Shown one piece after another: positions 3,201 through 64,000 of a stretch of 64,000 nucleotides of DNA (position 1 is the stretch's first letter; the number at the start of each line of letters is the position of its first letter). The translations under genes and the position numbers were made by a program. Source of the stretch: Cucumis sativus (lineage: Eukaryota > Streptophyta > Magnoliopsida > Cucurbitales > Cucurbitaceae). The stretch is taken from assembly GCF_000004075.3 (NCBI RefSeq), contig NC_026660.2, positions 21,331,498 to 21,395,497 on the forward strand. Direction: 5' to 3'. The notes beneath the pieces were generated by a model that ran no database searches, was not told the DNA's origin, and was given only the letters and a program-made list of their open reading frames with translations.

Positions 3201-4077
3201 TATTCAAAAGGCTAGGGGGTTACTTATTGTTGTGATATTATAATTTATATTGCAATATATTTCCATATTTTATTGTTCTTGAGTATCTCTTGTTAGGTTT
3301 AGATCCTAACCGCGTGTTGTGTTACTGTCGTATGTACTCACTTCTGGTGGCCTTGAAGAAACTCTCTTTGTTACCTTGCAGGGTTACGGTTTTCTCTTTT
3401 GGTTTGTTGGCTGGTCCTGTCACTGGAATATGCACTGTGGTCTTTGAGGTGAGTCAGTTGAACATTTATCAAGGAGTTCCAGAGCACTGCACCCTAAACA
3501 AACTTCTTAACTCTACGCTTTGTAATCCCCCAAACAACTCCTTTAACAGTTCCATATTAAAATAATGGACAATATATCTAAGATGCTTATAAAATCCCAT
3601 CGATGTTGATGACGCAGGATTTGGTGCTGCCAAGTGTATATTCATTTTTAGTGATGCTAGTGCTTGGTCTCCTTGCCTTCTTGGCTGAGGTAATTACCCT
3701 CTATAGTGTCACGAGCTAACGGATTGATAACAAACAATACAGTCGGCTATCAATCATTTAATGCACAAATTAATTGAATTCTTTCTATGGATTGTATTTT
3801 CAACTGAAGGTTTGTTGGGCTCGAGGACTTCAACTTGAGAAAACGAGTAAAGTTAATAACCTTCGGTTCATGGAGGTATGTATTTTTGTAGTTCCCTTCG
3901 GTTTATGGGTTATTGTAAAGTCTATAACCTTTGACATTATTACAGGCCTCATTGGTGCAATTATGGCATATTGGAATATTAGGAGTGGTTCCTTTTGGAC
4001 GAATAGTTGGAACTCTCCTTATCTTCCTCTCTCTTTGCTGGACCTTTTATGTCGGTCCTGATAAAGAAATGGAATAA
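207..4077 (+). CDS. EamA/DMT-family membrane transporter (SLC35G-like), 5' end incomplete
   Basis: Nine exons can be joined with consistent phases and GT-AG sites: 207-360, 595-769, 1346-1461, 2081-2140, 2405-2552, 3382-3448, 3618-3689, 3810-3875 and 3946-4077, ending at a TAA. They give about 329 residues, mostly hydrophobic membrane segments. Family-like stretches are SIPIIEMAFTRC after the first junction, SQAIVLSFTTPILASVAARF at the end of the first EamA repeat, and GLLAFLAEVCWARGLQLEKT in the second repeat. The family moves small metabolites or nucleotide-sugar-like solutes across membranes; the substrate here is unknown. The exon at 207 has an acceptor (ttttcag) and no usable ATG, so the start exon is off the left edge or unresolved in 1-200. 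Intron 5 (2553-3381) is the longest and carries repeat-like DNA. Family membership is from sequence; transport direction and location are not shown. Confidence 0.8.
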
Positions 4078-5938
4078 AATGTCAATTTCATTTGTCTATT
4101 CCACAAGGAACTACAAATGTCTTCCCATTTGTTTTTTCTTTTCTTGTAATGTTCATGACAATCGTTTGGTTCAATTTTTTAAAAAATACCCCTAATTTGG
4201 GTTGGTTTTGATTATCTCTGACTAATCAACATTAAAATGTTTCATTTTAACCCTTGGACTTTGATGTTTTTTTCCAAACAATTCTTGTAAGTTTTTGCAG
4301 ATGAATTTTCAAAGATTGAAATTTTGCAATCTTACACTATAAAATAATAATATTATTAATAAAGATGTGTGAACTCATCATTCTTCCTAACTCTACATTT
4401 TTTAGTTTCTTAGAATAAATAGGTTGGTTGGGTTGGCAACTCATAACATTCTCAATCCAACCTTTCAAATATCAGTTCGGTTATATTATCTCATAAACCT
4501 TTGAAAGATTGAGAGAGAACGTTGGCAAAAACATAACATAAGCTAAGGAGCGACAATTGGAACGGTGAAATCTACAAAAGATGGTGAGGTGCAATTTGCC
4601 AAATTAAGGTCTAACCTCTAAATTAATAATAAAATATAAATTTAGAAACTTAAGCTATTGAAATAGCCTTGTACTGAAATTATTAATAACTTATATTGCA
4701 AACTTTATTTAGAAAAATAAAAAATAAATAAAAATATCAGATATTTATAGTGCCATAATAGTTTACTGGGATTAGCTAGAATTTATCATATTTAACCACT
4801 AATCTCTAAAGACAACAATTCAACAATGAACCACCAATCTTTAAAGATGGTACATTACAATTCTCTATACAACCATGTGAGAAAACAAAAAATACATTAC
4901 AAGTCGAAATCAAGTAAAAGCAAACCATGTACCTTCTAGTTATCTCTAATCTGAATCACTAGATTGGATCACAACAATTAAAATGTGTCTTTGGACAACC
5001 AAAAAGCAATGATTAACTGTCACACATTATTATTATTCGACTAAGTTTGTGTCAACCTTTTTTTTACTTCACCATTAATAACACTAATACTCATCCATAG
5101 TTCTTTTGTCCAACAAATAACTTTGTCAAAATTGATATTAGGGTATAAGACTAAAATTCATTTTTCTATTAAAAAAGATAATTTTGTTGCAACCGTTACA
5201 TATAAATTAGTTACTTTACCTTTTACCACCCTAATAAATTAATTACATCTACAATTCAGTATTCATACATTGAAATGAAATCCAATTCTATAAAGTTAAT
5301 ATTCCACATCTTAACTTGAACTAAGTATTATATATAAGAGCACCCTCATTTACTGGATTAAAAAAATTCTTAAAAGTACATTTCTTAAATAAAAAAACCT
5401 TCAATTAAAGATTAACAGTGACCAAGATCATTGTAACTTACAACTCCAATTTTGTTACAATTTCACTCAAATAAATAGATGTTCCTATATCTAATACTTC
5501 AAGTTGTAAATCCCCATTGAAACTTGTGTGTGTGTTCACCCACCATAACGCCAGCCTCGTATGTAATTGATCCAAATGATACTCATGCATAAATGTGTAT
5601 ACTCTTAACTAAAGTTCAACCGGACGGACATGAAGATCGTTGGCATGGGAAAGTGGCAATTGGTCAAGAATTACCCACCTCTCTCTTATGAATTCAAAAA
5701 CAAAATACATTTAAACTGCATCTTTATTTAGTTTACTATCTACCCACATAGCGCAACATTCAAATACACCAAAATATAATTGTCAAATCATTAATTAAAA
5801 CAGTTTAGGTTATAGAGATACTAATTACATTGTTCATAAGGCATCTAAATTAATGAGTGATTTTGTTTAAATTATTTAAAATGTTGTAAATACTACATTT
5901 TGAAATTTAAAAAGAAAAAAAAAAGGAAGAGTATATGA
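4078..5938. other. AT-rich intergenic DNA
   Basis: The transporter 3' flank comes first, then AT-rich sequence with many short homopolymers. A weak copy of the GGTTGGGTTGG motif lies near 4420-4500. I see no open frame with coding character, no RNA gene and no clear transposon ends. Confidence 0.5.
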
Positions 5939-6024
5939 AAGCCTCAGATAGCCAGTCTGTTTGACATCAAAATGAAAATTCAGTCGGTAATTCCAACTAA
6001 AATAGAACAAATCCTCATCGGCTT
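5939..6024 (-). ncRNA. C/D-box snoRNA, predicted 18S rRNA 2'-O-methylation guide (snR77/SNORD65-type)
   Basis: Read on the minus strand, this 86-nt segment has the full C/D layout. A 5-bp terminal stem AAGCC/GGCTT closes it. Box C is ATGAGGA (6012-6018, one mismatch to RUGAUGA), D' is CTGA (5980-5983), C' is TTGATGTC (5963-5970) and D is CTGA (5944-5947). The sequence just upstream of D', AGTTGGAATTACCG (5984-5997), is antisense to the universally conserved 18S rRNA segment CGGUAAUUCCAGCU with one G-U pair. Counting five nucleotides from D' puts the modified base on the U of CGGU. In yeast that U (Um578) is set by snR77 and in human (Um627) by SNORD65, so this is the likely plant counterpart. 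I see no clear rRNA target for the D guide. It lies downstream of a telo-box/site II promoter on the same strand, as is common for plant snoRNA genes. Confidence 0.8.
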
Positions 6025-6175
6025 AACCCTTCAAACAAGAAATCTTGAAAACCAAAACTAAGAATAAAGATCATATCAGATTATAAAAAATGTAATCACA
6101 CAAAACGGCTCTGTAAATCTACTGAAAAAAGATAAACAGATTCCTATCAAGATGTGAAAAAGGGTTGTTCTTGGT

Positions 6176-6457
6176 TCAATCAGAGCATCGACGGTCACCG
6201 CCCTTAGCTATCGCCGACGTGGCATCGAACCGAAAGTAGAAAACAAAAAGAAAGAAAAAGATAATAAAATCCTCAGAGACCCGTTTCAAATCAACCACAC
6301 GGGGAGAAATCATGGAACTAGATGATGATTCCCGACCAGAAAAATCCCCCATAAACCAACTAGTTCCAGGGTAGAAACGAATCGGCAGACGAATTAACTG
6401 GCGGATGGAAACCATCAGTCTAACTCCTTGGCTTCTCGCCGCTTTTTGGAGTGTCAT
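6176..6457 (-). other. Transcribed leader/host region of the snoRNA unit with a 93-codon reading frame
   Basis: A 93-codon frame begins MTLQKAARSQGVRLMVSIRQ and ends about 150 nt before the snoRNA. I do not recognise the product. The first half is basic and could be a short mitochondrion-like or nuclear peptide. The second half (FIIFFFLFVFYF) reads like translated intron, so the true first exon may stop near 6300. The segment sits between a telo-box/site II promoter (6661-6790) and the snoRNA, so the simplest reading is the 5' part of an snoRNA host transcript. Whether any protein is made is unknown. Confidence 0.35.
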
Positions 6458-6660
6458 ACGGCACTTCCTATCAATTGTGGGAGTGTTTCATCATAGGAAG
6501 AGATTAAAACAATAACAACCAAAGTAAAACCCTAAGACTAGAAACTGCATTCAAAGTTAGGAAGCATTTGAAAGAGTGGATACAACAAAGAGATGAGATT
6601 TCTACAAAAAGATGAGAAAAGCGATGGAGATTGGTGGATATTTATGGAGTGGAGTTAGGC

Positions 6661-6790
6661 CGAGGGTTTAGGAGCGGCGACTTTGTAACCCTAATTTCAG
6701 ATGTATATCTCTCATGGGCTGCGTTTCACATTTGGGCCTAAGGTTGAAAATGATTTTTTTATTACGGCCCAATCAAAGAGCCCACCAATA
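6661..6790 (-). promoter_or_regulatory. Telo-box and site II promoter of the snoRNA unit
   Basis: The sequence contains AACCCTAA (telo box, 6687-6694), a second telo-like AAACCCT on the minus strand near 6664, and several TGGGCC/GGCCCA/TGGGCT site II elements (near 6715, 6733-6738, 6766-6771). In plants this pairing marks promoters of translation-machinery and snoRNA genes, where TCP-type factors act on site II. It lies directly upstream of the minus-strand unit leading to the snoRNA, and no plus-strand gene follows it. Confidence 0.6.
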
Positions 6791-8319
6791 TTTTATCTAA
6801 TCTTTACAACTAGCAGCCATTTTTAGTATAATGATGGAGTAAGTAGCAATATTTTTTAAATAAATTGCAAATTTACAGTAGTGAAATCTGGTTCGAGCAG
6901 AAGACATTCTCAGTCCAATCCATATTTTCATATTAGTTTGGTTGACAACCCGAATAACTCAAATTTAGTTTCGAACCTAACAATATGGGTTGGGTTGAGT
7001 TATCAGGTTATATATTTTTTTAATTTATAGTTTATAATGGTTATAACAGTTCAAAATTGTTACATTTAAATTTTAAACATGTCATTCAAAATTTCATTCA
7101 ATAAATTGAAAGTTTATATAGCTAATTTGTTTATATATATATATATATATATTATACTAATTCGAGTTGGGTTGAACCGAATTTTTCAACCCAAGACTCA
7201 ATCCAACCCAAAAAAGAAAAAGAAAAAAATTAATCCAACTCATATTTTAACCTAACCAACTCTTATAATATGGGTTGAGTAGTCCGAATCCTTCTTACAT
7301 CCATAGTAATTGATTGTTTTTTTCATTTGAAAAATTTTTCAAGATATGACAAAAATGCATTTTTGGTACGTGTATTTAGTCTTTAAGGTTTAAAAAAAAT
7401 ACCCTTAATGAGCTTGTGTTTGTGCTTGATTGACTTTTGACCCATCTTTTGCACTTTGTACTTAAACTAGTCCTTTTAATAGATTTTTTTATTTAAGTTA
7501 GACCTTGTTTATTTTAATAAATCCAATGACTAAACTTCAACCTCAATTGTCCTATAGTATAATTTGATTACACAACTAGACATTTATGCTAGATCAATGT
7601 TCGAAGTTGCATCATTTGATTGGACAACTTTCATGGCTTCAATTTTAATTTCATAACACATGTAAATTTGTAATTTGTGTCAAATTAATAATGCGACGAT
7701 TTATGATTCGTTGAAATTTTATAGTCAATAATGTCGCTAACAAAAATTATCAAATTTTTTATTATAATAATAACGATTATTATTTAAAAATGTTAAATTC
7801 AGCCAGCAATAATTTAGCTTTATACCTACGTGATTCATGTTCATATATTTTGTTTCTAATATTTGTACTAAAGAAACCCTATAATTGAAGAGAAATAAAT
7901 TTTAGAATTCAAAAGAAAGAAAATTGGATTGAATGGCCACTCAGATTTCATTTTCACAACTAAAAAATTGTCAATTGTTAATAAATAAACATTATCATAA
8001 AACTAAAAGAAAAATCCATTTAATGAAATTAAAAGGGAAATGACATTTTTATAAAGAACAGAAAAGGAAAAGTAGAAAGGAAAACGTATATGATTGTGGA
8101 CATTTACCTCTATCCCCCAACCCTCATTGACTAACTCACATCAAATTATTCACTTGAAAGAAAGAAGTATAGCACTTAATGTTGGTGCTTTCTCTTTAGA
8201 AGGCCACCATGATTAGTATACTATTCATTCAAAAACAACCAAACAGGTTATAAAGCATTTACAAATAACAAAATATTACATGTTAACTCGTATGATATCA
8301 AAAGTTTTAGAGGTTATTT
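6791..8319. other. Intergenic DNA with a GGTTGGGTTG-type repeat copy
   Basis: AT-rich spacer. Around 6950-7300 it holds several forward and reverse GGGTTG(G/A)GTTG / CAACCCAA motifs and ends in CTTACATCCATAG, matching the terminus of the element at 12.3-13.0 kb. A short (AT)n run lies near 7133-7152. No gene is seen. Confidence 0.5.
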
Positions 8320-8780
8320 GATATTATGATTCTAATTATGTTAGATGTCAATACACTTTGTAATCTACTTAAGGCTATAGTTATATCTTCGTGTTGGTTG
8401 AAGGAATTGTATTTTGGAAGTGTGTTACAATCACTTGTGGCTTCTTCTACCATAAATGCAGAGTTTATAACATGTTATAAAGCATCAGATCATGGAACAT
8501 GGTTGTAACATGTTGTCACTATATTGCATATAGTAGTTGCCAAAGACCACTAAAACTATTTTGTGTCAATAAATCGACAGTGATGTATTCAAATACCAAC
8601 AAAAGCAATACAAAATAAAGACATGTAGAGGTAAAGCTTTTAGTTGTGAAAGAAAAGTTTACAACAATTAAATTTCAAGATAACACGTAGGAACAAACTC
8701 TATTGTGATAGGCCCATCGATTGAAAACGTACAAATCAAGTTTTTCACGAGTATGTTGCTCACGTTGGTTTTAGTCTAAC
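8320..8780 (+). mobile_element. Fossil fragment of a Ty1/copia retrotransposon (RNase H end of pol)
   Basis: The translated stretch LQSLVASSTINAEFITCYKA followed by SDHGTWL matches the end of copia RNase H, where the consensus is close to LQ-VALSTTEAEYIA. Weaker similarity to the region around the NKSAI and H-ID motifs follows to about 8.75 kb. It is an old, broken scrap with several breaks. No LTRs, integrase or reverse transcriptase were found nearby. It has no expected function. Confidence 0.65.
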
Positions 8781-9148: not shown

Positions 9149-9829
9149 TCAGATTGCTCCGTCGCCGCCGCCGCCGCAGTGGTGTTTCATGGCATCAATT
9201 TCATCTCCATCTTCCAACCCCAGCTGAGAATTACACCCAAATTAACAAACATGACCACACAAAAACTGGAATCAAAATTTGAAGAAAAAAACACTGGAAA
9301 AACCTCTTCGGCGGTTTGGGTTCCAGCAATGGGATGGCCATCCATGAGAAAAGCAATGGTACTGAACTCTAGCTCTTGTCTTTGACAGTAAGAATCCATG
9401 AGTTTGTTGACTTCGGTTTTCTTAAAAATCCTGAAATACACTTTACTTCCATCCTAACAATCCAGTCAAGCACAACACAAACCCAATCAAACTATTAATG
9501 TAAATAAAGTAGGCTTAGTTATTTTGGGTAATGATATTAATGTAAATAAAGTAGGCTTAGTTTATTTGGGTAATTACCCTTGTATAAATACACTCCCTTT
9601 GGTCAATAAACACATCAAGAGAATATTCTTCAGAATATACTTTCACACAAACATTACATTTCCAGTTTGGTTTCAAGGACTGAAAGAAAAGAAAAGAAAA
9701 AAACTGCAAAATAGAAGATGAAAACAGAACTTGGCCATTCACTTTGAGGTTGACGTACTCCGACTCGGGTTTTGGTTTGGTTTTTCGGGTTGTTTCTTCA
9801 TCGATGCCATTGTTCATCAATGTCGACAT
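9149..9829 (-). CDS. Divergent SUMO (small ubiquitin-like modifier), three exons, 107 aa
   Basis: The minus-strand exons are 9731-9829, 9304-9453 and 9149-9223, all phase 0 with GT-AG introns. The product has a flexible N-terminus, YVNLKVNGQ|DGSKVYFRI as first ubiquitin-fold strands, a helix like KLMDSYCQRQ, STIAFLMDGHPIAGTQTAEE, and LEDGDEIDAMKHHCGG ending in a short GGDGAI tail. SUMO is matured by ULP proteases after di-glycine, then conjugated to lysines by SAE1/2 and SCE1. The predicted mature end is Gly101. Where canonical plant SUMOs end QTGG this one has HCGG, so it belongs with divergent paralogues like Arabidopsis SUM3/SUM5 rather than SUM1/2. The di-glycine is coded by four GGC triplets in a row. 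The three-exon layout argues against a processed copy. Intron 1 carries a 41-bp tandem duplication. Expression and protease processing are untested. Confidence 0.8.
9494..9574. repeat. Tandem duplication of about 41 bp inside SUMO intron 1
   Basis: Two nearly identical units, 9494-9535 and 9536-9574, share ATTAATGTAAATAAAGTAGG and GGCTTAGTT. The sequence after them (TATAAATACACTCC, then CAATAAACAC) resembles the promoter/polyA part of a retrotransposon LTR on the plus strand, so the intron may hold an old LTR scrap. That second reading is weak. Confidence 0.6.
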
Positions 9830-31882: not shown

Positions 31883-33070
31883 TTATCCATTTCAGTTTTA
31901 GAGATGATTTTCACATAATTTTTCTCCAGCTTTTAACTGTAAATAGTCTTAATGGGCATTTCTAACGTGCTATAAATTTACACCAACGGGGAAAAAACTT
32001 CCCCTATTTTACATTAATTAATATTAATATTATAGAGAAAAAAATAGGAAACGGAGATCTATATTTCGAAAATATATATAATTTGTTTTATTTCACATTT
32101 ATTATTAAATAAATTTTAAAATATAATAATTGATAAATTATTTACTATATACCAATTTTTTAATCCAAGCCAAAGTATTCATTTTCATTTTCGATAGGAG
32201 GTAAATAATTATCATTTTCTTTTATTTATGTAAATTCTTTTTTATTATTTATATTAAAACTGTTTAGTCTATAAATTATTTGATATATTTCTTTTTATTT
32301 AAGATTATTGTTTATTAGATATTATGTGTAAATATAGCCTATAATTAGTTGATATGTTTTTAAAATAATAAAGTAAATTAAATATTTACATATACCAAAA
32401 TTTTAGATTCCATGTCAATAACTGAATTTATTATAACACAAGTTGTAAATATTTTTTTTTTTTGTAAAATCAACTACTTTTAAAAAAACTTTCTAATTAA
32501 TTAAATCATGTTAATATTTTAATAAAAAAATTCCAAATGATTATTTATTTTAGTCAAAATTTCTTCTCATATAATATTATTTTTTTGAGTCAAAATTTCT
32601 TCCAACATAATATTATTTCTTTTTCATTCATCTCCTTCAAGTTTTTGGATTAGTACATGTTTGTTTTGAATTATTAATTTTATTTGTAAAATTTAAAATT
32701 ATAGTATGTCGGTGATATTTTTCGGTGAGACGAAGTTTTTCGATTAAAGAAAATTTTAGTCAACCATATATATATGTCACATACTTTATTTCCCTTTTAC
32801 ATTCTTTTTCATTTATATCATGTACTTTACTAATTTTTTTATTTATAATTATTATGTTGCATCCACTTTGGATGGTTTTTAAGTTAATTTGATAAATTTT
32901 TGTAGTGTCAAAAATTAAATTCAGTTTAAATAGAATAAATATACGTCGTATATATTTTAAATAATATTGCACATTGATATAATTATACTACATCCATTGG
33001 TGAGTGCATATGTATGTTTTAAATAATATATGCATATATTTTAAATATTATAACGAATGTCTACAAGTAT

Positions 33071-33115
33071 GATGTACATAATATACTATATATTATATAG
33101 TACATTATGTATATC
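33071..33115. repeat. 45-bp near-palindrome (AT-rich)
   Basis: The core TACATAATATACTATATA and the inverted copy of TTATATAGTACATTATGTA differ at about one position. It could extrude as a hairpin or cruciform, and it may mark an element end. Confidence 0.75.
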
Positions 33116-34042
33116 ATTCCGTGTTTTCGTCTCTTACTTCTTTTTGTTCAATCTCTATTCTCTTATTTCTCTTGGCATGTCTTTTTCTCTTTTTAGTTTC
33201 ATTGTTTTCTTTAATTAATATTACTATTTTTTTTTCTTTTCTTGTTTTATCTTCATTCAATATCTTCAAGTTCCTTTAGTAACATTTTCGTCTTTTGTTT
33301 TTATTTTTTAAAAAACATATATGTTTGTTAACGTTTTCGATTTGTCATTTTATAAGGAATTATTAGAAACAAATAAATAGTTTCGCCCATTCACGTTCCT
33401 CAATTATTTATATTGGTTTTTTTTTCTCATTTGTTTTTATTGGTTTACTTTTCTCAATTATTTTTATTGATTTCTTTCTCTTTTTTCTCAAACTTTTTTA
33501 TTGGTTTAATTTTCCTTGAATTCCATTATTTTTCTATTTCCTTTTCCAGTTTTCTCTTGTGAATTTCTTTTAGTTCCTCTTATTTTCATCTTATTTCCCA
33601 AATTGGTTTCAATTTTCTTCCTTTTATCTCCCTAGTCTTTTCCAAATAATCATCTTCTTCCGTTCTTTCATCGTCTTCTCTACACGACGCTTTCCTTTTC
33701 GCTGAATCTTGATTTTCCTCTTCATCTTTGCTTGAATTGTGTTTTTGTGGTGGGTTTTCGTCAAATTTGTGGATTTTTGTCAGATATGTGTTTTAGCCAT
33801 GAGTTTTTATCTTTTTATTGCCATGAGTTTCAGTCCCCCTCTTCGTCGTGGGTTTTCGTCTTCCTCTCGTCAACTATGTTTTTCATATCTCAATCTTCAC
33901 CTCATTCTCCATAAGATTACAATAACACCTTCCTATCTAGGTACATATACATTTGTTTGATGTTTAATTGAATTAAATGTGAATAAAATATAAAATAAAC
34001 TTCAAATAAAATCAGGAAACACGAAATAGTAATAAAACACAT

Positions 34043-53022: not shown

Positions 53023-53046
53023 CGCTAGAAGGAGGGCTTGAACCTC

Positions 53047-53079
<33 letters not shown>

Positions 53080-53096
53080 AACTGAGCTATTCCAGC
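53023..53096 (-). tRNA. tRNA-Asn (anticodon GUU)
   Basis: The minus strand reads GCTGGAATAGCTCAGTTGGT through to a CTTCTAGCG end: 74 nt with a 7-bp acceptor stem (one G-U), TAGCTCAGTTGGTTAGAGC D arm, anticodon loop CTGTTAA with GTT at 53060-53062, and a GGTTCAAGCC T arm. There is no intron, and CCA is not encoded, as is normal for plant nuclear tRNA genes. A short T run follows on the minus strand (RC of 53012-53018) as a Pol III terminator. Confidence 0.95.

Positions 53097-57298: not shown

Positions 57299-64000
<6,702 letters not shown>

Follow-up and report, generated by a model that had tools for sequence, protein, structure and literature searches.

A snoR77Y gene within a three-snoRNA cluster of Cucumis sativus, with a predicted 18S rRNA target in the 530-loop region

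The window, that is the whole stretch of 64,000 nucleotides of Cucumis sativus DNA that was analysed, carries three Rfam snoRNAs on its minus strand, which cmscan finds in the order snoU49 - snoR2 - snoR77Y and which all lie inside 564 bases (Table 1). The first of them, snoU49, is a modest match whose 3' end deviates from the model: CTGA is absent inside the match, and the nearest CTGA past it, located by eye, is at 6418-6415. Lax Rfam scans of 3900-5950 and of 6400-8400 gave, apart from snoU49, matches that were all far under the cut-offs. Seven reading frames were also compared to Pfam, and two of them gave matches above the cut-off, one at 1284-1532 on the plus strand (EamA) and one at 9190-9453 on the minus strand (Rad60-SLD, SUMO-like), while the frame that spans the cluster (6179-6487) gave no Pfam match. 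As the Pfam matches lie elsewhere and the frame of the cluster is without any, the cluster is taken as intergenic, so that the three snoRNAs apparently form a single intergenic unit. Rfam also places a tRNA gene in the window, at 53023-53096 on the minus strand (71.7 bits).

Table 1. Features of the snoRNA cluster and of its upstream region (positions are those of the window)
Feature	Position	Strand	Evidence or remark
snoR77Y, C/D-box snoRNA, full length	5936..6024	-	cmscan RF01178, 76 bits, cut-off 52
Terminal stem, 3' arm GGCTT	5939..5943	-	sequence reading; 5-bp stem with AAGCC
Box D, CTGA	5944..5947	-	sequence reading
Box C', TGATGTC	5963..5969	-	sequence reading
Box D', CTGA	5980..5983	-	sequence reading
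D' guide, AGTTGGAATTACCG	5985..5998	-	14 bases antisense to 18S CGGUAAUUCCAGCU, one G-U
Box C, ATGAGGA	6012..6018	-	one change from family AUGAUGA
Terminal stem, 5' arm AAGCC	6020..6024	-	sequence reading
snoR2/U65, H/ACA snoRNA (RF01292)	6088..6231	-	cmscan 119.1 bits, cut-off 44, E 4.7e-22
Strong hairpin between snoU49 and snoR2	6310..6432	-	MFE -48.3 kcal/mol, z -4.80
snoU49, C/D snoRNA (RF01300), first of cluster	6432..6499	-	cmscan 42.2 bits, cut-off 35, E 3.9e-5
Telo box TAGGGTTT, promoter or leader	6527..6534	-	motif scan
Telo-box core TAGGGTT, promoter-like	6687..6693	-	motif scan
Four site II motifs (TGGGCY or complement), promoter-like	6715..6784	-	starts at 6784, 6771, 6738 and 6720

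A motif scan that covered the 1000 bases upstream of snoU49 found, together with the telo boxes and site II motifs of Table 1, a TATA-like ATAAATA starting at 6645. Counted over both strands, TGGGCY occurs 33 times and the telo core 11 times in the whole window, and since there are only 33 TGGGCY in its entire length, the four site II motifs that fall within 70 bases make up a marked cluster. What defines a plant snoRNA polycistron is found here, namely several snoRNAs on one strand with a telo box and site II motifs upstream, the intergenic position being the part deduced from the Pfam results. In Arabidopsis, telo boxes are present at 37 of the 40 non-intronic snoRNA loci, and at 34 of these 40 they go together with site II or TEF1 boxes (PMC3022908, accessible text). 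Promoters of this type are common at non-intronic snoRNA loci of plants. The cluster resembles the known plant polycistronic clusters in its mixture of C/D and H/ACA RNAs on one strand and in these upstream motifs, but it differs from them in the strong hairpin that separates snoU49 from snoR2. Neither the three-snoRNA cluster nor its promoter motifs were part of the original prediction.

That prediction was of a C/D-box snoRNA at 5939-6024, and the Rfam search of the minus strand, which it had itself proposed as a check, bears it out. Searching the 64-kb window with 4227 Rfam families gave a match to RF01178 with an E-value of 2.4e-13 (3.8e-15 for the same gene when a 1-kb stretch was searched). 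The match covers the full model (1-85 of 85) and its score exceeds the gathering cut-off by 24 bits, which is what membership in the family is judged by. The terminal stem and the boxes C, D', C' and D all stand on the minus strand where they had been placed. The proposed extent is right in that the stem ends at 5939, but the Rfam match extends 3 more bases, to 5936. A chance resemblance at a place where there is no gene is extremely improbable: the E-value effectively excludes it, and two more snoRNAs and promoter motifs lie on the same strand.

A search of both strands of the whole window with motif rules (a C box with at most one mismatch to RTGATGA, a CTGA 50-110 bases on and a perfect 5-bp closing stem) also met with snoR77Y as the sole place, with none on the plus strand and one on the minus strand. 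These rules were set after the gene was known, so that this result is no independent statistic, and it is the Rfam E-value that is the proper statistic for snoR77Y. The sequence GGAATTACCG has a single occurrence within the window. To our knowledge, an unusually stable fold is not expected of C/D RNAs; the fold of snoR77Y itself (5936-6027) has a z of -1.43, and 20 of 200 shuffles are equally or more stable.

With the snoR77Y family (RF01178), to which belong yeast snR77 and human HBII-135, the latter being presumably SNORD65, the RNA shares its length, its stem, its four boxes, its D' guide and its predicted 18S target. It departs from the family in box C, which is AUGAGGA here and AUGAUGA there, and in its spacers, which relative to the model have three insertions (4, 1 and 1 bases) and a 2-base deletion. 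The family that had been suggested was snoR77/SNORD65, while the proper entry is snoR77Y, RF01178; 'snoR77' is in Rfam a separate entry, RF00268, snoZ7/snoR77 (PMC3808423, accessible text). An Arabidopsis 'snR77' is described in the accessible text of PMC7464842 as an RNA of 150-300 nt whose rRNA target is not predictable, a putative C/D RNA that is elsewhere listed with the H/ACA RNAs; as this size and this description do not fit snoR77Y, we take it for a different RNA. PMC4660826 was also set aside as a source on snoR77Y, the names in its accessible text being snoR775 and snoR779. The locus is a real and ordinary plant snoR77Y gene, a further member of a known family, and the original prediction was correct in substance.

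The variant of box C deserves a closer look, as it was expected to make gene finders miss the gene. The variant is real, but it does not conceal the gene from Rfam, given the margin of the score over the cut-off. The changed base, as we take it, lies opposite the U of box D in the kink-turn, where U-U would be usual. The departure from the RF01178 consensus at this one position could be read as the mark of a decaying or inactive snoR77Y copy, in which the U-to-G change disrupts the kink-turn, the task being left to another gene or to none. We consider this very unlikely. The stem, the guide and the remaining boxes are intact, and it is plausible, from kink-turn geometry as we assume it, that a G-U in the place of the U-U need not break the fold. 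Moreover, a search of the genome (226,625,048 bases in 88 contigs) found this one match to RF01178, with 62 of the 57301 first-look candidates being scored. RF01300 (snoU49) also matches the genome once, with 64 of 28992 first-look candidates scored, and because so few were scored, weaker second copies of either family are not strictly excluded by these single matches. Besides the cluster, a DNA search with 5900-6640 returned seven places in the genome that are 78-90% identical, all of them over the snoR2 part. Six of the seven (L003-L009) pass the snoR2 cut-off, while L008 fails, and no other Rfam RNA over its cut-off was found at these loci of about 3 kb each. Their alignments (from 1501 onward) mostly end near the snoRNA ends.

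The D' guide had been predicted to be antisense to the 530-loop region of 18S rRNA, and this is what the pairing gives: AGTTGGAATTACCG pairs with CGGTAATTCCAGCT of an 18S fragment found elsewhere in the genome (L011 1003-1016) over 14 pairs, with one G-U, and the guide and box D' are one unpaired base apart. The base opposite the U of CGGU (L011 1006) is the A at window position 5988, the fifth upstream of D', so that the guide is antisense to 18S CGGUAAUUCC with a U at n+5. The 18S reference is no intact rDNA unit but a partial SSU copy with a low score (321 bits, model 4-1116 of 1831); its target stretch is identical to the 25-base 18S pattern of the 530 loop. This pattern occurs at one place in the genome, which is that partial copy, on another contig (L011:446-1428), and a 16-base 25S pattern has no occurrence in the genome assembly; the assembly may therefore miss intact rDNA. 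Two other 14-pair runs in the 8-kb locus were rejected, as they hold 6 and 7 G-U pairs and lie outside the rRNA match.

The target U is, as we assume, equivalent to yeast Um578 and human Um627. In Arabidopsis, U582 of 18S rRNA is assigned to SnoR77Y by RiboMeth-seq (PMC8053127, accessible text), and in the accessible text of PMC2780460 Nc CD24, the counterpart in Neurospora, has 18S-Um575 as its listed site and is treated as the equivalent of snR77, snoR77Y and HBII-135. The family match, the n+5 geometry and the Arabidopsis assignment together support the predicted 2'-O-methylation of a conserved 18S U, and by analogy the counterpart of Arabidopsis U582 would be methylated in Cucumis sativus.

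Apart from 18S U582, snoR77Y could also have a target guided from box D, which would add to the 18S guide rather than exclude it, and which we regard as unlikely. The spacer that precedes box D, GACUGGCUAU, is near the RF01178 consensus, and an alignment to the A. fumigatus family Afu_300 also falls in this part (29.8 bits, short of the family's cut-off of 40), but this spacer forms runs of at most 8 pairs with the 18S fragment (model 4-1116 of 1831). A U5 target is predicted for the D guide of the Neurospora counterpart (PMC2780460, accessible text), whereas SnoR77Y is absent from the accessible part of the Arabidopsis RiboMeth-seq snRNA table. Similarly, 25S C2340 is given for Arabidopsis SNOR77Y-1 in a table quoting snOPY (PMC6461891, accessible part), whereas U582 is the only site listed for SnoR77Y in the accessible part of the RiboMeth-seq rRNA table (PMC8053127). 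Judged by the U55 and SnoR37 sites that they share, the 25S numbering of these two papers differs by about 10 near C2340, and the RiboMeth-seq 25S sites in the accessible part of PMC8053127 include none near 2350.

Considering all of this, the best explanation is that the gene is an orthologue of plant snoR77Y, the third RNA of a snoU49 - snoR2 - snoR77Y polycistron, and that it guides the methylation of an 18S U, which we hold to be very probable. We infer how the RNA would be transcribed, processed, assembled and put to use. Pol II would transcribe the intergenic polycistron from the minus strand via the site II/telo-box promoter, and snoR77Y, coming third, would be released from the transcript and then built into a C/D snoRNP. 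With the D' guide paired to the 530-loop strand of 18S rRNA, the U in CGGUAAUU (U582 in Arabidopsis) would be 2'-O-methylated by fibrillarin. The identification of the locus as a conserved rRNA guide, together with its cluster and its likely promoter, helps annotation, and if the gene truly has no second copy, it would allow a clean test of the importance of this 18S mark in a plant.

Between its first two snoRNAs, the apparent unit also carries the strong hairpin of Table 1. Its shuffles average -31.7 kcal/mol, and none of 200 is as stable as the hairpin. As seen by eye from the fold, its outer arm joins 6407-6427 to 6314-6333 in 20 pairs that are interrupted by one bulge. The entire spacer (6232-6431) has a z of -3.08 and the snoU49 stretch (6380-6505) one of -1.16. 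Among 1559 minus-strand windows of 123 bases, with 25 shuffles each, the hairpin has the lowest z (-6.0), but this top rank is flattered, because its own window was placed by hand, four of the 1559 windows, the hairpin included, are at -4.8 or lower, and the adjacent window 6315-6437 has a z of just -3.0.

From the fold, the hairpin could be a miRNA-like structure or an extended U49/spacer structure, and either would fit; the Arabidopsis U49-1 gives a northern signal of about 250 nt (PMC7464842, accessible text). DCL1 might process the 20-pair arm into a miRNA, which would make the polycistron a sno-miRNA gene, a reading that we find doubtful. It has a precedent in the Arabidopsis sno-miR775 and sno-miR779, where, as here, a snoRNA unit with a telo-box/site II promoter includes a hairpin, and such Arabidopsis snoRNA-miRNA genes have experimental support (PMC4660826, accessible text). 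Here, however, the hairpin sits between snoRNAs, with hardly any further stem below its 20-pair arm. Rfam families gave no match to the hairpin at E-values up to 1, its arm sequence is not in the accessible part of the novel-miRNA table of PMC3431224, and when the genome was searched with its DNA sequence, the hairpin itself was the only match. If true, the sno-miRNA reading would tie a silencing RNA to the control of ribosome biogenesis, and the hairpin merits a look in small-RNA data. Unusually stable folds are also seen in three other minus-strand windows, at 33047-33169 (z -5.5), 4019-4141 (z -5.5) and 57319-57441 (z -4.9), each with 25 shuffles.
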